64,000 nucleotides of DNA from Hesseltinella vesiculosa. Taxonomy: Eukaryota > Mucoromycota > Mucoromycetes > Mucorales > Cunninghamellaceae. Below are positions 2,099 to 64,000 of the stretch, piece after piece. The position numbers and the translations under genes are program-made. The DNA lies in the NCBI GenBank assembly GCA_002104935.1, contig MCGT01000016.1, positions 469,418-533,417 on the forward strand. Reading direction: 5' to 3'. Position 1 is the first letter of the stretch, and each line of letters opens with the position of its first letter. The notes under the pieces were generated by a model. The model was not told the origin of the DNA. It did no database searches and worked only from the letters and a program-made list of their open reading frames with translations.

Positions 2099-4763
2099 TT
2101 ACAAGCGGCCATGGTGCAATCCAAACATTTCCAGAGCAACCAGCATATCGATATCCAACTTGCCCTTTGCTTTGAGTTCATCCAGGCTCATTCTGATCTT
2201 GCCAACATAACCTGTGGTGGTGGGTTGCTGAGATGAGGGGGACGACTGCTCAGGCTCTGTTTCCGTCACTTGTGTCGCAGGCACCAAAACGCGATCTTCG
2301 GGGTCGATATGATCTGGCAATAGCAAAGGTTCATGGCGATTCAAGCAGTAAATGGCATATTGGATCTTTGGAGGCTGGTCGTGTTGCACTGCCATGTTGC
2401 TGGCTGTAGGACTATCATCCACCTTGTCTTGTTGTGTGGCTGGTGTGATGCCATCCCGCTGCAGTTCAAAACGACACTGAAGAAAAGGGTTGTCGCTGGA
2501 TGGTTGCTGAGATGGAGAATCATTTGTTGCTGACAGTATTAAAAAAAAAAAGGTGAGCCGCGGTCGCTTTGCTGTGGTTCCCCTCTCGCGTCTGTTATCA
2601 CTTACGAGAATCCAATGCAGGTGGATCCAGCACGGTAGCCTCGACACGGACGCGGTACCAGTGGCCGAGGATTTGTTCGGATTGGGTGAAGAAGACCTTG
2701 CGAAACAGGTGGTCATTGGGCGCAGGCGAAGGAGATATCAAGGCAGACGAGGGCGTTTCAGAACAGTCGCCAACTTCCAACAGCTCCACAGATGGTGCGT
2801 GCTTCTTTCTTGCGCGACGTTGTGCAGGAGTAGCAGATTTGGCATCCAGATCATCCATGTCATCTTCCACGGATCGTTGGATGGTACGGTCTTGACCCAT
2901 AGGCTCATCTACATCAATCAAGATGGGGGCTTCCTTGCTGCTGGATGGAATGAGTGGTTGGGAGGAACTGGCAGGGTTGGTGGCAGCCGGCAGGTCATCC
3001 TCTTCGCTTTCATACAGTTCATCCATGTCCACGGCTTGACTGTTGGGGAGGGCGAGCCAACCGTGTAATGGGTATTCCACAGTCACGGACGCTGAGAACC
3101 GGAAGCGAGGGGTGCCAAGCAAAAGGCGTCGGCGTCGTTCCTGGTCCAGGGAAGCACCATCTACATCAAAGTATTCACTCAAGGCGGCATGGCGTTCACT
3201 GTCATTATTGTCGTCGCTGTCTTCGGAGAGCTGAGAGGATGTGCGCTTACCAACAGTGGTGGGAATGGTGAGGGTAGACGTTGATGCGGGTGAAGTTGAG
3301 ATGGGTTTCATCACGGGACGTTGGGACGGACGATGGACGGTTGGATAGAGAAGGCGGTCGAGCGATTCACGTTGCCACAGCGCGCGGAACACAATGGTTT
3401 CGTCGACAATGCCGTCCTGGCGCACAATTGTGAGCTGGTCAAAAGTCATATTGCTGTAATTGACGGTGGTGCGAAGCAGGTAGGAGAGGATGGTGGCTTT
3501 GTCAAGAATACCACCAGACGAGGCATCGGCTAGCAGCTTTTCAAACGGAACGCAAGCGGAGAAGGAGAGGCGGGAGAGCTTGGGTTTGTTGGCAGGATTT
3601 TCGTCATTGAACAAGTCTTGCGACGAGAAGCGTTTGCGCTTGCGTTGGCTAGATAATCGAATGTCAGAGGCAGTGATCTTCTTTCTCTCCTGCAGAGAGG
3701 CGGTCATGGTAGAGGCTATGGGATGGTGGAAGCCATGGCTATTGAGATTCGCAGGCAAGCGTTTGACAAAGCCAGAGAGGCGCTTGCGTTCCTGGTCGAT
3801 GGGGCCGGTAGCCGTCCAGGTGATCTTGCCCACCGATTGCATGAAAGCCACCAGGACTTCACGCAGCAGGCTGTAGCGTTCATATTCGCAGCTGACAAAA
3901 AGAAGGTCGGCACTGAGGATATCTGACATGTAGTCGACCGGCAGTCGAGCCAGTAGGCGCGGATGGTCGGGTCCCTGCCGAAGCAGCAGCAGCAAGGCAG
4001 CGTCGCGCAGCTGGTGGTACGCCCGGTGGTATCGTGGTAGCTGGCAAATGATTTCAAGATCGCGATTGATAGAGCCCATGGTCAGTTGGCGCGCCAAGTA
4101 CTTGTTCAGACAAGCGTCCACCAGGGCGTCCAAGTCGAACATAATGGCGATACAGAGCACACGCAGGGTATCTTCCTCCTCGAGAGAGTCGACCAAGTCC
4201 TTTCGATGGATCGTGTACAGCCAACGAAGTACAAAGCGTACGTGTGAGGATAAGATGTGCTGTGGCTGGGCTGTTTCATCCTTCGAGTCTTGCTGCCGGG
4301 ATGGCTCTTTGGAAAGTGTCGGCGACGATGCATCTTCGGAAGAGGACGGGTCATTGGCCATAGGTTTTTGCCATTGGCGCCTAATGATGTGCTGGAACGG
4401 TGCCATGATAAAACCACGGCTAGTCATGGCGTCAATGAGATCCACCGTCAAGTGCAGGACAGGATGGCGAGATGTTGTGCAGGTGGTTTGACGAGAGGTG
4501 TCGTGCGATAGCAGAGCGCTGGATCGATCGTCAACAGAAGCAGCTGGTGAAGCTGATGGTGAATCAGGAGCGCTTCCAGTGGCTGGGGGAATACGATGGA
4601 TGTTGTCTAGCAAGCGTCGTAAAAAGGGCGATTGGGCTACTACGCACTTGTGCACATCGAACCTCATGGTGAACGGGAACGCCGAATGGTAAAATGCAAG
4701 AGACAGATCTGAAAAGAGGGACTTTTCAAACATGCTTTCAAGCACATGCTGTCCCAGATCCAT
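2099..4763 (-). CDS. BTB/POZ-domain protein with long acidic, disordered C-terminus
   Basis: Two exons, 4763-2606 and 2529-2099, joined by a GT-AG intron, give 862 residues in frame. The N-terminus (about residues 1-60, MFEKSLFSDLSLAFY...VHKCVVAQSPFLRRLL) has the BTB pattern: a hydrophobic strand followed by H-K/VAQSPFLRRLL, where the domain dimerises or binds Cullin-3. A second part of the domain continues after a Ser/Pro/Gln-rich insert (FVLRWLYTI around residue 180). The middle has leucine-rich helices compatible with a BACK-like region. The C-terminal third is Ser/Asp/Glu-rich and ends with a helix, DELKAKGKLDIDMLVALEMF. No Kelch or zinc-finger repeats are visible. A role as a ubiquitin-ligase adaptor or transcription factor is possible but not shown. 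Transcribed toward the PC-esterase gene in the same direction. Confidence 0.75.
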
Positions 4764-5084
4764 GTTGATTTATGCTAGATATGCCAAGGAATACGAAAGA
4801 AAGAAAAGAAAAAAAAAACAAAACAAAAAAACACGTCGTTTTCTCTTTGCGTCGCTTGGCCAATCAGTTAGCGATGATTCGAAAAAAACTTACCGCTCTA
4901 CAGAACTCACGGAAATGGAGGTTACGCAGGGCTAAAAATCTGCCGATAAAATGAAACCACTTTTCTGTTTTTGGCAAAAAAAAGGAGGGAAAAGTTTACT
5001 TGCTTTTTTTAACACCTTTTCCTGATATTTCTTTCTCTTCGCTATTTCTTATAATGCCATCACACAACGTTACGCGCCTAGATA
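4764..5084. other. intergenic region with a short dispersed repeat
   Basis: Upstream DNA of the BTB gene. Around 4897-4935 it carries CAGAACTCACGGAAA...CGCAGGGCTAA, a block seen again at about 16951-16990. Otherwise it is A-rich with no gene. Confidence 0.4.
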
Positions 5085-18465: not shown

Positions 18466-19818
18466 CAGTGGCCGGCCAAAAAAAAGTACCCCTATTCCGA
18501 AAACGGAATTGCCCAGTGAAATTCGTCCAATAAGAGCGCAGTGATTTCGTACCCTGAGAGTGCGGGGAATGTTTTTTTTTCGCTTCGAATGGTTCTGAAA
18601 GTTGAGGATAAGGCTCAAGTGGTTGCATTGCATTACCGAGGGATCTCTACGACATCACTTAGCCGCCAATTTCATGTTACACGTAGAACGATTAGGCTCA
18701 CGATAAAGAAGTACAATGAACGCGGATCATTCGAACGGATGAAAGGATCTGGTCGCCCAAGAAAGCTTTCGAAGTATGACTTGAGTAGTTTGGGACGTTT
18801 GGCAAGAAAGCACAGACGAGCTACATTAGATCAATTACGACTAATGCTTGCTATTAAAGTGAGCAACCGTACACTTCGACGTCACCTACATGCAATGGGC
18901 ATCCATTCGAGAGTTGCCAAGAAAACACCGTTTATAAACAAACAACAGCGTAAAGCACGAGTCTCTTTCGCTAGAAACCATCTTCACTGGACGCAAGAAC
19001 AATGGAAGAAGGTATTATGGTCCGATGAATCTACGTTTGAAATTGGAAAGAATTCCCGCAGGGTTCGCGTATGGAGAAAAGATAATGAAGGCGACCACCC
19101 CGATAACCTGCAGCCCACTTTTAAGAGCGGACGTACCTCCCAGATGTTGTGGGGAGGCATCATGCATGGACAGAAGACAGAGCTTGTCTTTTTCGAGAAG
19201 GAGGGTGCCAACGACCGCAAGACTTGTAGCACATCCAAGGACTACCTTAAACAGGTCTACAACGGACCTCTTACGACCTTTATGGAAGCCCATGGCAACG
19301 ATTTCGTATTGATGGAAGATGGGGCTCCCATCCACAGGAGCAACCTCACCAAGGCTTGGCGTCAAAAGCGAGGGATCGTTAAATTGGACTGGCCGGCGCA
19401 GTCGCCAGATCTCAACCCGATCGAGAATTTGTGGGGTATTATGAAGCTTCGCGTCAATCTTAGATTTCATGAAGGGATGAAGCTTCCTGAGTTCCGGAAG
19501 GTTCTCCAGGAGGTGTGGAACGAGTTTACTGAGGACGACTTCAATAAATACATCTCCAGCATGAGGTTGAGAATGCAAGCTGTTATTTGCAATCGTGGCG
19601 GACCTACTCGCTATTGATCTCAACTTCAATTTTTTTTCATAAGCACAATGACAAAGATTTTTTTACTAAGGAATAAATATCCGTAACTGAATCATATACG
19701 AAATTTCCAGCAGGATCGATCGATTGGTCTTCAAGAAAGGTTGTATTTATTAACTCTGAAGATTTATGCAAGGTGTGACGGAAAAGGAAAAGGGGTACTT
19801 TTTTTTGTCCGGTCACTG
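18466..19818 (+). mobile_element. Complete Tc1/mariner element with TA target duplication
   Basis: The 1353-bp element begins CAGTGGCCGGCC and ends in the inverted counterpart GGTCACTG. The two 28-bp TIRs (through an A8 run and GTACCCCT) differ at two positions. A TA dinucleotide flanks each side (18464-18465 and 19819-19820), the standard Tc1/mariner target duplication. It carries one intact transposase ORF. High TIR identity and an unbroken ORF suggest recent activity. Its right TA is also the left TA of the next element. Confidence 0.9.
18589..19617 (+). CDS. Tc1-type transposase (DD34E), intact
   Basis: ATG 18589 gives 342 residues; no intron is needed. The N-terminal half has paired helix-turn-helix domains (EDKAQVVALHYRGISTTSLS and the TLDQLRLMLAIKVSNRTLRR segment) with the linker GSGRPRK. 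The catalytic core shows WSDEST (first Asp), LMEDGAPIHRS (second Asp) and SPDLNPIENLWG (Glu), with 34 residues between the second Asp and the Glu. These residues carry out cut-and-paste transposition into TA sites in the nucleus. Length and motifs are normal for a full Tc1 transposase, and I see no stop or frameshift. GTG at 18541 would extend the frame upstream, but a fungal start is more likely at the ATG. Confidence 0.93.
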   Translation: MVLKVEDKAQVVALHYRGISTTSLSRQFHVTRRTIRLTIKKYNERGSFERMKGSGRPRKLSKYDLSSLGRLARKHRRATLDQLRLMLAIKVSNRTLRRHLHAMGIHSRVAKKTPFINKQQRKARVSFARNHLHWTQEQWKKVLWSDESTFEIGKNSRRVRVWRKDNEGDHPDNLQPTFKSGRTSQMLWGGIMHGQKTELVFFEKEGANDRKTCSTSKDYLKQVYNGPLTTFMEAHGNDFVLMEDGAPIHRSNLTKAWRQKRGIVKLDWPAQSPDLNPIENLWGIMKLRVNLRFHEGMKLPEFRKVLQEVWNEFTEDDFNKYISSMRLRMQAVICNRGGPTRY

Positions 19819-32886: not shown

Positions 32887-34172
32887 AAATCAAGCGCGTG
32901 CGAAATTTTTCGTAGTGCAAGTTTTCCAACCTTCTTGTTGTTCACTCGACTCTCTGAGTGACCGGCGATTTCAATCAGAGTCATTTCTATGCATTTTGAT
33001 CTCGTATGAAAAATTTGGGGTGAATTGACTGGAACGGTTTTGCTCTGCAACCTTTGATCAGATGGCTTGGGGGTCATACTTCCCCTGAATTGAATTCAGT
33101 AGTCGAAATAGGCGGAAGGGAGACAAAAGCCTCATGCCACCCATCAAAAGATGGGCCCTTCCAACTATTTCATACGGTCTCGTCCGTTATCGGAATTAAC
33201 CAGACAAATCACTCCACGAACTAGGTCGGTCCCCTGGGGAAAACGGCTGATTTTTCATTGTTTTTAGCTGGGGGATCGGAGTTGGCAGAACGAAATTGGT
33301 CAAAAGTTGGCTGGGCAACCTTGGCCAAACGACCTGAATTATTCAGAATCATCATCATTCATGTATTTGCGCACTCGTACAAAATTTCACAACGATTCAA
33401 TCACTCAAAGGCGTTTTGCAGCGAACGATTTTTTTTTTTTCATTTTGAAAAAAAACTGGAATTGCCGATTCAGTCTCCGCACTACTCGACAAAAATCTAA
33501 AATCATTCGCTGCAATGCGACTTGGCCAATCAGACGCCTTTTTTTGGCTGCCGATTATTTTTTTCGTAACCCACATTTTTTTCGCTATACTGACTTAGAC
33601 ATGACCGTATAGAGAAAAAAGAAAGCACAAGCATGTGTGGCACACATGTCGCGAGTTTATTGACCTCATCAGTGTAGCGAAAAAAAGTTTGTTACGAAAA
33701 AAAAACCCGGCAGCGAATGATTTTAAATTTTTGTTGAGTAGTGCGGAGACGGAATCGGCAATTCCAGTTTTTTTTCAAAATGAAAAAATAAATCGTTCGC
33801 TGCAAAACGAGTGATTGAATCGTTGTGTAATTTTGTACGAGTGCGCAAATACATGAATGATGATGATTCTGAATAAATCAGGTCGTTTGGCCAAGGTTGC
33901 CCAGCCAACTTTTGACCAATTTCGTTCTGCCAACTCCGATCCCCCAGCTAACAACAATGAAAAATCAGCCGTTTTCCCCAGGGGACCCCCACACCATCTG
34001 ATCAAAGGTTGCAGAGCAAAACCGTTCCAAGTCAATTCACCCCAAATTTTTCATACGAGATCAAAATGCATAGAAATGACTCTGATTGAAATCACAGCTC
34101 ACTCAGACAGCCGAGTGAACAACAAGAAGATTGGAAAACGTGCAAAGAAAAATTTCGCATGCGCTTGATTTT
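32887..34172. mobile_element. 1.3-kb palindromic (foldback) element
   Basis: The left arm from AAAATCAAGCGCGTGCGAAA (32887) is repeated as complement ending at 34172. Arms of about 550-700 bp keep the same words in mirrored order, such as CACCCCAAATTTTTCATACG, GGTTGCAGAG, GGGGAAAACGGCTGATTTTT, GCTGGGCAACCTTGGCC and AACTGGAATTGCCGATTC, and meet near 33620 around TTCGCTAnACTGA. The left arm has a 156-bp insertion (33076-33231) that the right lacks. No transposase is encoded. It is probably a non-autonomous inverted-repeat transposon; pieces of it occur at 22570-22700, about 7020-7110 and 40978-41045. Confidence 0.75.
33076..33231. mobile_element. 156-bp insertion in the left arm
   Basis: Compared with the right arm (TGTGGGGGTCCCCTGGGG), the left arm reads GGGGGTC, then 156 bp, then GGTCCCCTGGGG, with GGTC at both edges (33072-33075 and 33228-33231) as a possible target duplication. 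It has no coding content. Confidence 0.5.
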
Positions 34173-57877: not shown

Positions 57878-59892
57878 TGAACGCTAAGCTGAGAGTGTGG
57901 TCGGGTAATTTTCGAAGATGTTATAAAAAAATAAGTATAAATTAAAAAAAAGTCGAAGTGGTGTTGTTGAAAGAAAAGGGCGATTTCACACAAGGAGCTG
58001 TAAACAAAGACACAAAGGAAAGGAAAGAAAAGAAAAAATTTTAATCTGCTTTTATAGGTGAGACTTCCCCAGGCACCATTTTACAGCCCAGATGCCATCG
58101 TACTACCGCGATTGGTTCGCTAGGATATCTTCTCCAATTAGAGCTAAAGATAAGGTTTTTTCTCGTTTTCTTTTCAGCTTCACAGCCCGCCTTTCAGTCA
58201 CCTTAAAAGGTTAAAAAGTGACAAGTGATCCTGTTGCCAATCGTTTGACGGCCCAGCTCTCACGGTCAGACCTACCCTTTTTGAACCCAATCTTAGTAAG
58301 ATCGCTTATTCCACGACGCACAAGGTTCGCTTTTTCGTAATTTTTAAGGTCGTGACAGCGTGTGATTGTTTCGGTCCTTTTTTTACGGTCGTCCATTATT
58401 CTTTTCAACAATGGTCCTTATCATGTCATTGCCCGTTCATTCGACGTGGTCACAGCTCTCATTGAATGGAAAAAACGGTTGCCCGCTGCCATCCAATTGG
58501 TGTTGAAAAATATAAAAAATCCACAGAGAACACATGGAACAGAAGCATATTTTTTTTTTCTGGGGATAGGGGTTCCAAAGCCGTGGAATCGGGAACAATG
58601 GCTCGTTTCTTGGTTGGTCTTTTTTTGTGGAGTGTGGGAAATGAAAGCGCCGAAAAAAAAAGCATGAAACTAAAATTCTCAATATTCTGTCTAGCATATC
58701 GAGTACAAATGGTATTCCACCAATGACCCCGGCCCCAGCTTTCAGCTTCACCAATGCTCCCTTGAAATAAGCTCCACCGATACTTCCTAAAAAAACAAAT
58801 CCAAAGCACAGCACGTTGACTCCTATCTGACTAGTACCTCACTCAAGCAAAGTTGGCAATTGAGCAATGCAGAGGGGCTAGGTAAGTGAACAGCTATCGT
58901 ACAAACTCAAATTCGATCCAAAGCTAACAGGGATGACCTTCAATTTCTTTCACTCGCCAGGCTAAATCACCTCCTAGAAGGGATACTGGCGTTTTAATTG
59001 CCTTACCTCAGGCAATTAGCAGTTATTTAATCCTTGTCGAGTAAGCAAATATTATCGTCTGTGATGGAGTGCGAAAAAATGAAAGAAGCAGTGGTGCTAC
59101 TGCGTGACTTGCTAAGCCAAATTTGCCAGAAGAGCACGCATCTTGCCGTATCTCTTGCTCTCCACGCTGTGATCTAATGCGTCTAAAATTTTCCCCATCG
59201 TCGCTGTCCGTCATCTACTGCTTCCATGCAAAGTTTAACGTCAATTGGACCAACCAGAATTTGGCCTACGTCGCTGCAATCCTTCGCCTGTGGTCATATT
59301 TTGGCTGGAGAGCCATGTCTTTAAGTGGGCGTAGGTCGGCAGGACGTGACGTCAGAGGTATGGGAGCTTAACCATGATTAGCTTGGTGCATAAAGAGGTT
59401 CGTTGGAAAATTTGGTGAGGATTGGTGGAGAAATGATATTTGGCTCGTTTTTTTGGCTGCCTATGTTTTTGATAAAAACGGTCAGGGTATGCTCAGGGAT
59501 TTTGGAAAATAGAAAAAGCGTCATCATTCGGTTTTGAGCGGGCGAATTCAGTTCCTATTTCGCATGGATATACACTTTATTCACAATGTAATGTCGCAAG
59601 TGAAAGAAACAAAATGTCACCAAAAGATCTAATAAAAATAGAAATACGAGGGGTAAGTTTAGCAACGAGTCGCAAATAATAGATGAGCTTACCAATATCC
59701 CAATGGGCGCCATACACATGAAAAAAAAAGTGAATTGACAATGAATTTTTTTGAAGGTGACTTACGTTGTTTTCACATCTTCATGATGGGGCCGCCGACT
59801 CACACTTGCAAAGCATGTGACATTGTACAAAAAAATAGAATTGACGATTGATACTGAGGAGTAGAGTTAAAAAAACTGTGGGAGGCAGAAGA
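57878..59892. other. 2-kb intergenic region
   Basis: Promoter side of the permease and 3' flank of the Fanzor gene. A minus-strand frame near 58814-58660 (FVFLGSIGGAYFKGALVKLK) looks membrane-like but has no start exon or stop context I can support. Splice-like signals at 59684-59700 and 59760-59780 may be 3'-UTR introns of the Fanzor transcript, and GAATAAAGTG near 59578 (minus strand) could be its poly(A) signal. Confidence 0.4.
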
Positions 59893-62800
59893 TCAAAAAA
59901 TGGGGTCCTTGGTGAGTTGACCATAGGCACGTAGTGCGATGCATGTTGCGGACAGAGTATCCCGGCCAAACGAGTTCTTGCATTCTTTGTAGCAAGCACA
60001 ATTTGGATTCGCACAGCAGCTTGTTCCAAGGTTCAGCTTCCTTTTGCCCATCGTCAGCTTCCTTGGGTGAATGATTCGTTCGCGGCAATATGGGCAAACC
60101 ATGCTGGTCCGTGCTTCGTTGGTGATTAGAGCGATGGAATGCTGCCGGGTGAATTGTCGATGCCACTTTCCACCTAATCGCAAATGCCCCTTTATACGAG
60201 TACCAGTTCCTGTCCCTGCATGGCCGATAGCTTGTATCAGAGTTTTTTGAGGGTGTTGACGTTTCTTCTCGACCACGATCTTGGTTTTGACAAGCTTGGT
60301 TCGCCAAGCAATAAGGCGGCGCCTTCGTTCAAACTTGGGCTGGTGGTAAAAGGCACGGATGGCTGGGGTCTGTTCTCGGATCCGGTCATATCGATCTTGG
60401 AATGTTTCTAGGTTAAAAGCAGTTGAGAGGGTGTTCTCGGCAACGATAGTCTCAGCCTGTTGTGCAGCTTGGCCACTGGGGGACTACAAAAAAAAACAAC
60501 AGTTGAGCTTGGTCACACGCCAGCGAGGTGAAAGAGGTTGTATACCTTGGCTTTGTCATATTTCATTTTCTTGTTGAACTGGTGTTGACCAGTCTTCCAT
60601 GATATGTCTCGAGCAGTGATCAAAGTGGGCTTGCCAAGTCTCACCAGCTTGCCAGCCTTGATTGATTCCAGATCAGAAACCGAATGGGTCACGGTGGTGG
60701 CGAGAGTAACAACACCATAGTCAGTTCCAGAAATCAGGAGGTCATTGGTATCGATTTTCAAGATGGTGTGCCGAGGATCTTCCTCCACACGTGTGGTTTT
60801 CTTGAGTTCAGTGGGAGGGAGGGGCGATTCCTTGTCCTTGGATTTCTTCTTTCCTTTCTTTGCTTGTTCTTCCTCAGCCTTTGGAAAAAAAACAATCGGG
60901 TCACGTTCGTCCTGCTCCTAACCAACTCCCCACCAAAACGCATACCTTTTGAAGAGTATAGCGGGTGGACCGCAAGTTTGCCAGACCGTCCTGTACACTG
61001 TGCACATCTCGTGTTGCTTGCTGGAGGCTGTTCTTCAATGTACGTTCGACCTTCACATCGTGGAATTTTTGTGCAGCAGGGTCTAGTGAATAAAGAATAA
61101 AAAAAATGAGAGGTACAGATGAGACTACATATCTTTTCACTCTTTGGAATTACCATTGTTCTTCATCGATTGCCGATGCTTCATCAAGGCATTGCTGCAG
61201 TCCCGCTTGGTTCTGGAGAGTCGATCTCGTTCTTTTTCCTTCTCAGCAATATTGGTCATCAGAGTGTCAAGTGAGTGTGGAGTGGATGGAGGCACGGGGT
61301 TGGACTGTTCTTGCTTCAATCGCTGTGGGTAGAGGGAGCTTTGCCTTGGCTTCACTGTTTGACCTTGCATGGACGCATCGTTTGCAGGGCTAATGTCCAT
61401 CCTGTGCATAAATTCAATACCATTTTTTTGGCAGATGGAGTTGATGGCAGACATGTCGAAAAGGCAGCCAAATACTTGATCTTTTCGCCGGCGCGCTTCG
61501 TTGGCAGACGTAATACCTTGACTGCGCTTCATATCCAAGGGCTTGCCAAATAATTCGTAGATAACGGCGGCATCAATGGATAGAGCGTAGAGCGAACCGG
61601 TGGACACAGCTGGGGCATAGCGCATGCAGAATTGGTGGTATCCACAGAGCCGAAGCAAGGCGTTGCCAAAAAACAGTAGGTTCACTCGGCAGTACTTGGG
61701 CTGGTCTACAGAGATAATGAACGGCTTGATGTTGCTGTAAATGAGCTTCAGGGCTTGTGATTCCTTGTCAGAAAGGTCTAGTTTCTTGGTGTAGGACTTC
61801 ATCACGTCCTCTGTCAAGCTAGACACGTTTTCATTGTAGATCATGCGTGTCAGGATACCTTGCAATGTGCCAAGCCGTCGTGCTGAGATATCACCATTGC
61901 TCTTGTCTGTAACAATTTCATCCAACTCATATCCGGTCGAATTCAGGTCGTCATGCACAGCCATTTCATCAAGCTCTTCTTTCACATCATCACCCTAAAA
62001 GAAAAAAATGAGACATCATACACTTTGGTGGGAAAGCAGCCATACCTCGTTGTCCGGGACATCATTGTGAGATGCTTCTTCTGCCGCAAAGCCAGAGCTT
62101 GTCTTGGAACTGGAGCTGGTATCCTACAAGGAGAAGCAGAGACAGAGAAGATTCAGTAAACATATTAGGAAACATTGTGGAAAGATACCTTTTCTGCTTG
62201 TTCATCACAGTCTTCTCTCTTTAAGCGTTCACGATCTTCTTTCAGCGAACCCTACAAAAAAAAAACTGTGTGTTAAAGCTGAACGTGTACTAGCCTGCCA
62301 ATGAACTTACAAGGACTTTCGTTAGGTGTCCAATCCGAGCCTCGTAGCCTTGACGTTGGTGGTCACTGAGCTTGATCTTTTCAGTCTTCTTCTGAAGCTC
62401 CCATTGTTGACGTCGCAGAGCGTTTCGGACGCCATTCCATTTGCTTTTCAGTTGCTTCTGTTTGGATTGATAGACAGCCTTTTTTTTTTCCAAAGAAAAA
62501 CAAGTGAGCATTTCAAAATCTGGGAAATACAAATAGTGTAGCGTCGCACTACCTCTATTTTCTTAGCCTTTTCATTAGCTGCCTTAGCCTTGGCTGCATG
62601 GTATCGTTGTTCGCGGAGGGGAGCAAGGTGGAGACGGAGGAGGAGCCGCAGGACGTAGCGAACCATTTTTTTGAAGGATGGGCCATTGAACAGATTCTTC
62701 AAGTCGGTTTCAAGCTTGTTATTGTATATGGCTTGAAGGCTGGTGGTCACCAGTGGGCTTATTGTGCCTGGCGTCCAGTCATCATCTAGGGAGGTCCAAA

Positions 62801-63684
62801 CAAGATTGTTCGCGTTGGATTGCTGACAACGACCGTAGTGACAGGACTTGAGGTGCTGGATGTGGCGCAGATCAAAAAGCTTGCTTGCGAGAGGTTTATC
62901 AGGAGGAGGAAGCCCTGGGAGATAGCCATCGTTCAGTATGGTATTTTCACGCCAAGCAAAAGATGGTACAAGATCTATGGCTTTGGTGGGAAGCGGGACC
63001 GCTGAGGAGAAGTAAAAAAATCACCTGAACACGATACCCTTCTGCTTTTTTTTTTCATGACTTACAGCTGTACCAGTCTGCTTCCGGTGTCGTAACGAAT
63101 TTTATGATGGATGCTTGTACCAATGCAGCCATGTCCTGGGAATATTGAGTGACTGCTTGCATAGTGTTCTTGATGGTAGCAAAGATGGTTGATTGCAAGT
63201 CATTGTCGTTTCTGATGAGTGGCATCAAGATCGAAGTAAGGGACTTATGGCAACTACGAATTTCCTCTTTCCTCAGAGACGAGGGCTTTGAGGATGAAGA
63301 GGCTACGCCGACAGTGGAGGAGGAGGGCTTCTCGGAAGTAGAGGACACTTCGGCGGGGACTTGACTGGCCAAATTATTAAAGGAGGTGCGAATGAACTCA
63401 TGCCAAACGTCAATGTTTTTCAGGCTTCGGAATTTGCTGCCGAAGTTGCCTGCATTCCAATTGCATTGCTGTTCAATGGAAGCAACGATGCCACGTGGAA
63501 CCTTGGTCTTGGACATCAGCTCAGTCTTGAGCTTCTCAGGCTTTGTGTCCAACAGCCGCCGCTTGACGTACAGTTCGAATTCAGCAACCAAAGCATTCTT
63601 TGCAGCATTCTCGTTATCAAGTATCAATAAAGGCTTCTTGTTAGACTTCGTGCCATCGTTTTGTGCCGCACGCTTTCTACCCAT
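59893..63684 (-). CDS. Fanzor (eukaryotic TnpB-like RNA-guided nuclease candidate), intact
   Basis: Nine exons: 63684-63066, 63001-62553, 62478-62311, 62251-62189, 62123-62046, 61994-61154, 61082-60946, 60878-60546 and 60483-59893; they close to 1092 residues without stop. The N-terminus is Lys/Arg-rich (MGRKRAAQNDGTKSNKK), a possible nuclear signal. The last 260 residues hold a RuvC-like core: ISGTDYGVVTLATT (Asp838), KIVVEKK (Glu968), IGHAGTGTGTRIKGH, ITNEARTSMVCPYC (Glu1019) and SFGRDTLSAT (Asp1071). A zinc ribbon is made by CPYC and the CCANPNCACYKEC cluster. The GTGTGT-for-Glu swap with Glu before RTS fits the rearranged catalytic Glu reported for Fanzors. Homologues cut DNA guided by an omegaRNA. 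No TIRs bound this copy, and eight introns suggest long residence in the genome. The guide RNA is not identified. Confidence 0.82.
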
Positions 63685-63951
63685 GATGAACGACAATAAA
63701 AAAAAGTTGAGAGTGGGAAAGATAAAAAAAAACGCGACCTGTCTATTTTTTATTGAACGTCCGAGTCAGATCCAACAAAGGATTGTAACCGCAGGTGACC
63801 TGGACCCAATCGCCGCTGAGGCAGATGCCGTCATATCCACCGGCATTGCGTCTTCAAAGGATCATACTCATGTAGAGATGACAGTGGCACATTGGGAGGA
63901 AGAGGTGATAGCAATGGTAGGAGATGTTGCAGGGCTTGCTCATTCAAAAGC

Positions 63952-64000
63952 TTACTTGAGGTTGGTTTCTCGTAGCTCTTGCTGAATTTGATGGAGCACT
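63952..64000 (-). CDS. Possible 3' end of a gene outside the window
   Basis: On the minus strand VLHQIQQELRETNLK is followed by TAA at 63954-63952. The same TAA lies inside GTAAGC, so this could instead be an internal exon ending with a donor. No family recognised. It is the upstream neighbour of the Fanzor gene in the same direction. Confidence 0.3.
   Translation of the reverse strand, partial: VLHQIQQELRETNLK

Follow-up and report, generated by a model that had tools for sequence, protein, structure and literature searches.

The question raised by this locus is whether an intron-rich gene at the edge of a fungal contig codes for an RNA-guided nuclease of the Fanzor kind and, if so, whether it belongs to a mobile element or has been taken over by its host. 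The DNA analysed (hereafter, the window) comprises 64,000 nucleotides, bases 469418-533417 of contig C8 in the 27.05-Mb assembly of Hesseltinella vesiculosa (Mucorales, Cunninghamellaceae). The reading favoured here, with a probability of about 0.75, is that the gene codes for the RNA-guided nuclease of a Fanzor-kind mobile element, belonging to a large and divergent sub-lineage that has GTDYG in place of DPG. Confidence in it was lowered because a second structure prediction proved as poor as the first and because recent copies of the element show no visible constraint. In what follows, the family of the window element is named Q, a related family B, and the DPG-type Fanzor elements of the same genome F2.

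Gene structure and relationship to Fanzor nucleases

The gene lies on the minus strand at 59893..63684, and the coordinates, strand and splice sites of the original prediction, which described nine exons joined in frame, eight introns and 1092 residues, all hold. The exons (63684-63066, 63001-62553, 62478-62311, 62251-62189, 62123-62046, 61994-61154, 61082-60946, 60878-60546 and 60483-59893) add up to 3279 nt, coding for 1092 amino acids plus a stop, with no internal stop codon. All eight introns are of the GT..AG type and measure 51-74 bp. The deposited model P0001, which corresponds to a copy of the gene on contig C34, aligned without gaps over the eight junctions; it has the same eight introns and leaves out 44 residues around a frameshift. 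Since this block is kept in the relatives P0003, P0004 and B, the 44-residue gap in P0001, and that in P0002, was taken as a route around the frameshift.

The C-terminus follows the RuvC/zinc-ribbon plan. Exon 8 (60546..60878, minus strand) contains RuvC-I, with the catalytic residue D838 (60722-60720) within GTDYG, while exon 9 (59893..60483, minus strand) contains E1019 (60117-60115), a zinc ribbon formed by C1026, C1029, C1053 and C1058, and the RuvC-III residue D1071 (59961-59959). Each motif named beforehand was found: GTDYG, a G-rich block (GHAGTGTGTRIKG), a Glu ahead of RTS..CPYC, the zinc ribbon and FGRD. The three acidic residues, in the D-E-D arrangement of Fanzors, did not vary among the four proteins aligned. 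E1019 precedes the first zinc-binding Cys by exactly six residues (E1019-ARTSMV-C1026). This placement of the RuvC-II Glu relative to the zinc-finger Cys, named 'Ealt', marks Fanzors in the available text of PMC10711439; the other half of the fingerprint given there is DPG at RuvC-I. The window protein has the Ealt half, with DYG at the site of DPG, so that the definition in that text would make it, judged by its motifs, Fanzor-like and not a typical Fanzor. The departure extends to the family: a pattern search of the fetched loci found DYG in seven of eight distinct RuvC-I variants, the eighth (DCG) belonging to a copy with a stop, and GTDYG is also present in P0003, P0004 and P0007. An earlier definition of Fanzor/TnpB proteins, D-X(125,275)-[TS]-[TS]-X-X-[C4 zinc finger]-X(5,50)-RD (Bao and Jurka 2013; PMC3627910, available text), was written as a regular expression in which the spacing allowed inside the zinc finger was our own choice; its match ended at RD1071, with D838 among eleven possible starts, and none of 2000 shuffled versions of the protein matched.

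Profile searches gave a divided answer. The 1092-residue protein reached no Pfam cut-off, and PF07282 was unmatched even at E 1; searched alone against PDB sequences, it gave no useful match and SpuFz1, the Fanzor1 of Spizellomyces punctatus (8gkh), was absent. A profile of four relatives (P0001-P0004), in which the window gene is represented through its sister copies, had SpuFz1 as its best match among 177,635 PDB sequences (E 0.0065, next 0.34). SpuFz1 was again the best match to a five-member C-terminal profile that included the window protein (E 0.014, next 0.44), and a seven-member profile that included truncated and mis-spliced models did not match it. The profile alignments placed in register the Glu ahead of TS, the paired Cys of CPxC, CxNPNC and RD. 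PF07282 (Cas12f1-like TNB) matched one of seven relatives at E 0.016 and one of five at E 0.005, below its curated cut-off, and unrelated models scored as well on the relatives (Cluap1, 0.0013; DUF1644, 0.0042). PF01385 matched one of five at E 0.1, and the best E value with NCBIfam, searched with the seven relatives only, was 0.088. Alignment by hhalign with the PF07282 group fell in the right register with P values of 0.004 and 0.003 and a probability of 8-10%.

Fanzor1 is characterised by a RuvC fold together with kinked helices in REC2. Structure prediction for P0003 was poor (pLDDT 53.7, pTM 0.29). The model has two long consecutive helices before RuvC-I, followed by strands and helices whose order is plausible for RuvC; used at this low confidence in a structure search, it retrieved coiled coils, with Fanzor absent among the best 50 matches listed. 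The C-terminal prediction suggested earlier, carried out on exon 9 alone, also yielded a poor model (pLDDT 51.0, pTM 0.28).

SpuFz1 shares with the window protein the E-[xx]-TS-xx-CPxC stretch, the CxNPNC type of second knuckle (CxNPxC in the window protein), the RD at RuvC-III and the order of the parts. It differs in being a protein of 633 residues coded by one open reading frame, in an element with 33-bp terminal inverted repeats (TIRs) and a putative TA target site duplication (TSD; PMC3627910, available text); the window protein has 1092 residues, nine exons and DYG, and no TIR was found in its element. Its size is also well above the 600-700 residues that PMC11423790, in its accessible part, gives for the majority of Fz1 proteins. 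The expectation of a divergent lineage, with an N-terminus unlike that of described members, was borne out.

Relatives of the protein form at least seven clusters in a collection of 5.8 billion proteins. Those listed include five from H. vesiculosa, one from Halteromyces radiatus, also of the Cunninghamellaceae, and a partial one from Mycoemilia scoparia, of another phylum, whose sequence comes from a 1667-base contig. The H. radiatus protein (BX664DRAFT_13109; P0003) is of the same family, being 52% identical over the C-terminal region and containing GTDYG, although its model, unlike the window protein, lacks the first ~375 residues. The partial M. scoparia protein (H4219_006446; P0007) belongs to the family too. 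In its own genome the window protein gave at least 107 exon matches (the best 42 of 209 candidates were scored), which on grouping by hand correspond to at least about 32 related loci. Family B is 59% identical to the window protein in amino acids of the RuvC region. The PF07282 model matched 46 places in the genome, the window gene not being among them; by coordinates, these places overlap none of the ~32 related loci and none of the eight F2 loci.

A multi-copy element with a sharp right end

DNA ~99% identical to the window copy, with its introns retained, was found on contigs C34, C57, C52 and C62. The match to these sister copies ends sharply at 59570, where the element terminates in AATAAAGTGTAT. 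The part of the element inside the window thus spans 59570..64000 (minus strand); the contig stops at 64000, leaving the left end outside. Beyond 59570 the flanks differ between C8, C34/C57 and C62. The C34 and C57 copies have both flanks in common, so they represent one insertion that was duplicated afterwards; on C52 and C62 the contig ends within the copy. Origin of the copies by retroposition of an mRNA was rejected because they keep the introns.

Family B was found at seven places, with the last 202 bp 98-100% identical. Three copies compared in full, with unrelated flanks, begin with TTTACAGTC and end with CAATAAAGTGTAT; no TSD was seen in them. At 18 distinct sites (three of Q, eight of F2, six of B and one of a further relative, L035) the right end reads AATAAAG[TG][GT]TA, and the base that follows is T at 15 of them and C at three. 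This count leaves aside C57 (the same site as C34), C52 (cut), L034 (a chance match to the pattern), the decayed relatives L031, L046 and L047, whose ends lack the motif, and L065, the single copy of a further group, ending in TTTAAGTGTAT.

The gene had been described as lacking visible transposon ends, a statement contradicted by the right end at 59570. The accompanying remark that there are no TIRs is correct as far as tested: 97% of shuffles reached the TIR score of Q, a test that rests on an uncertain left end, and 8% reached that of B. A search for empty sites in the form of joined flanks gave, among the 113 matches listed, none extending more than 4 bases past an insertion point. Searches of the genome at E 0.001 gave no match to the IS607 serine recombinase (PF00239, in six frames, exon by exon), so that the hallmark of Fanzor2 was absent, none to the IS200/605 Y1 transposase (PF01797) and a single one to the Helitron domain (PF14214). 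No target-adjacent motif was found either.

It had also been proposed that the gene could be domesticated, that is, a host gene derived from a Fanzor and now immobile. The eight introns, the long complete frame and the fact that, of five copies, just that in the window is intact would fit this view, but the gene is multi-copy within a repeated element. Near-identical copies with the same introns lie on four other contigs, the right flanks of C62 and C34 differ, the related loci number at least about 32 and the right end is common to other elements. Domestication is therefore extremely improbable in view of the mobile copies: the gene is real, and the element is mobile rather than domesticated.

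A candidate left end at ACC in the C52 copy, which would give an element of 4575 bp, was rejected, C34 DNA being collinear across this point elsewhere. The C52 break falls 141 bases past the window edge. Since the C34 DNA on both of its sides is collinear with two other loci (C19:89153-88512 and C34:72083-72723), the C52 copy has probably been cut short there; an undisturbed copy of the repeat reads TACC where C52 reads CACC. The possibility that C52 and C62 are parts of one copy received no support from the repeat at the C52 break.

The 3' non-coding end and the tail shared with DPG-type elements

In comparisons of Q with B, aligned bases were 63% identical in the 3' UTR, 38-59% in exons, 34-58% in introns and 48% in the 5' region; taken at full length, the 3' UTR scored 56%, below exon 9 (59%). 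The 70 bases that follow the stop codon lack conservation (23-37%). Conservation is concentrated in a block at about 59766..59830 (minus strand; 73-77% identity to B in 30-nt windows) and extends, to a lesser degree, to the terminal part. A 64-bp intron-like stretch at 59629..59692 (minus strand; GTAAG .. CTAAAC .. TTTTTATTAG) has counterparts in B and F2. Because it combines donor, branch-point-like and acceptor signals, an RNA produced from this end may be spliced there. The terminal stretch (59570..59628, minus strand) is a candidate for the 3' part of an omegaRNA scaffold. In both families a 5-bp inverted repeat is found equally far from the end, as TTCAC/GTGAA in Q and TTGAA/TTCAA in B, two of its pairs having changed on both sides. 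Folding energies did not depart from those of shuffled sequences (z -0.1, -1.0, +1.0 and -0.2), the terminal 60 nt being no better, and a search of the region against Rfam gave no match at E 1. The conserved 3' non-coding region is a suggestive candidate for the guide-RNA region.

The right end is not exclusive to this family. The last 134-135 bases of two F2 loci differ from the window family by one inserted base: over 59570..59703 (minus strand), 134 of 135 columns are identical to these two ends, and identity to the six others is 84-89%. The F2 gene is carried by eight loci (L054-L061), with 98.0-99.8% mutual identity in the preceding 466 bases. The protein of L054 reads GVDPG, NEAYTSQVC and NRDKSAATNI, and its locus matched a PF07282-type Fanzor of the same genome with 31% identity (E 2.8e-4). 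The rearranged Glu preceding the zinc ribbon is common to the window protein, F2 and the PF07282 group (L001-L008). F2 and the window element have almost the same right end but differ at RuvC-I (GVDPG versus GTDYG). The Q end is 64% identical to that of B over 134 bases, and 70% over the last 93, and is therefore less like its own relative than like two F2 ends. The window protein showed no meaningful similarity by tblastn to the 4-kb L054 locus (best E 1.3). Since the tails are near-identical despite this lack of detected protein similarity, the right end was probably passed from one element family to another, on at least one recent occasion, which suggests that Fanzor elements swap guide-RNA ends. 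If the favoured reading is right, two Fanzor genes with no detected similarity and one near-identical right end make such exchange directly testable.

The same observations bear on the origin of the family. The protein could descend from a TnpB that eukaryotes captured separately, with the rearranged Glu and a D-phi-G motif as in the non-Fanzor Ealt clade of PMC10711439, and not from Fanzor1. DYG predominates in the family and falls under the D-phi-G definition in the available text of that paper, and the large size, the many introns and the tblastn result would agree with such a capture; however, the CxNPxC knuckle and the best PDB match point to SpuFz1, and the right end is common to a DPG Fanzor element. 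We consider this origin unlikely.

The terminal conservation might instead be a DNA signal and not an omegaRNA. The element would then be a non-autonomous, Helitron2-like passenger, and the hairpin at its right end would serve the mobilising enzyme. The 3' end is fixed, no TIR or TSD was seen in B, the inverted repeat lies immediately inward of the end, equally far from it in both families, and a T or C adjoins the end at all 18 sites. According to the accessible part of PMC3627910, the insertion point of the Chlamydomonas Helitron-1N1_CRe, whose ends are common to Fanzor1 elements, lies between TTTT and T/C. The same text describes the Chlamydomonas elements CRe-1/2/3 as non-autonomous Helitron2 elements that have a 3' end common to other elements and many 5'-truncated copies. 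Their ends match a known Helitron, whereas no mobilising partner was found for the window element, the genome having just one Helitron-domain match; moreover, the second conserved block (59830-59766), some 200 bp further inward, is more than a terminal signal needs. The Helitron2-like explanation is less likely than the main reading, with which it is compatible.

In TnpB and Fanzor systems, an RNA from the right end guides cutting of targets that lack the element, which favours its retention. For the RNA-guided nuclease preferred here, the 3' end (59830-59570) would be transcribed, and perhaps spliced, into an omegaRNA whose guide, by analogy, would be the host DNA adjoining the right end; for other Fanzors, native guides of roughly 11-21 nt are reported (PMC10432273). 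Protein and omegaRNA would cut the empty target site, and repair of the cut would copy the element back and favour its retention, while movement itself would depend on an enzyme acting in trans. If this is right, Fanzors would extend to proteins half again as large, with an altered RuvC-I motif. A more far-reaching version, which we regard as rather improbable, has the family as a third eukaryotic lineage of Ealt nucleases, giant, of the D-phi-G type and neither Fanzor1 nor Fanzor2. Its omegaRNA gene would contain a spliceosomal intron and its guide-RNA/right-end module would be exchanged with DPG-type Fanzors, so that a nuclease could both use and spread an RNA end belonging to another.

That transposons may contain intron-rich Fanzor1 genes is already known: CRe-1/2/3, with five to ten exons, have been in print since 2013 (PMC3627910, available text). 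What is new is the size, the DYG motif, a sharp right end with no TIR found, a frameshift common to the sister copies and the shared tail. A literature search whose coverage takes in few subscription papers found no paper on Fanzor together with Mucoromycota and, among the matches listed, none on the family of the window protein.

A frameshift common to the sister copies

All four sister copies (C34, C57, C52 and C62) lack one base at the position equivalent to 60193 (minus strand; codon 993), which breaks the frame. The window copy has at this point the same length as B, P0003 and P0004, and alone among the five is intact; C57, C52 and C62 have extra single-base indels in exons. The description of the gene as a complete copy without stop codons is therefore accurate, and that of slow decay fits the four sisters.

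Among copies with the common frameshift the right flank is of at least two kinds (C34/C57 and C62). The simplest reading is thus that these copies spread after the frame was broken, gene conversion among older copies being the alternative. If they did spread in this way, the nuclease would not be needed in cis, in line with the dispensability of TnpB for transposition in E. coli reported in PMC3627910 (available text).

The window and C34 copies are separated by eleven substitutions in exons, ten of which alter the amino acid, so no constraint is apparent at this recent scale. This, the four broken sister copies and the putative status of the guide RNA would agree with a RuvC-like nuclease that no longer uses a guide RNA, or with a relic. 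We judge this quite improbable: the four aligned proteins agree at every catalytic residue, parts of the 3' end show conservation, and dN/dS was 0.15 between the relatives B and L035 (last exon), pairs that include the window copy being saturated. The presence of one broken nuclease frame at different sites makes the need for the Fanzor in cis testable.

Sequences at the two sides of the Fanzor-like element

In the window family, the mobile element carrying the giant Fanzor-like nuclease gene, the 5′ region was collinear with C34:72083-72723 (+) and C19:89153-88512 (-). In contig C34, a match to PF07282 (Cas12f1-like TNB) lay 2.2 kb downstream of the collinear segment, and the window family and the classical Fanzor elements may therefore have their left parts in common as well.

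The right flank of the element (window 59211-59571) was itself repetitive DNA. This segment (query 4430-4790) gave matches of 67–69% at eight places, each beginning no more than 2 bases from the junction, and further places matched portions of it; the segment C34:315729-315960 was 98% identical. A satellite-like repeat, present in direct and inverted orientation, was seen at C52:92172-92374; it had dozens of matches in the genome, including many further places on C64, C60, C66, C50, C23 and C9.

Genomic setting and protein models

At least 12 of the ∼32 loci matched by exons of the window protein lay less than 5 kb from a contig end, a lower bound obtained from contigs of known length. These related loci were found at the starts of C66, C30, C6, C56, C27, C75, C50 and C48, and at the ends of C8 (the window contig), C52, C62 and C57. 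Such positions could reflect either a subtelomeric preference or an assembly broken at repeats.

The deposited models of two window-family copies, P0001 (the C34 copy) and P0002, both lacked the same 44 residues, which belong to the conserved block around the frameshift shared by the sister copies; P0002 lacked additional stretches.

Other features of the window

The only above-threshold Rfam match in the window was to 18S rRNA, over 149 bp (33073-33221, - strand; model positions 1297-1451, 76.8 bits). An open reading frame of 358 aa (18541-19617, + strand) resembles, as judged from its motifs, a Tc1/mariner transposase.
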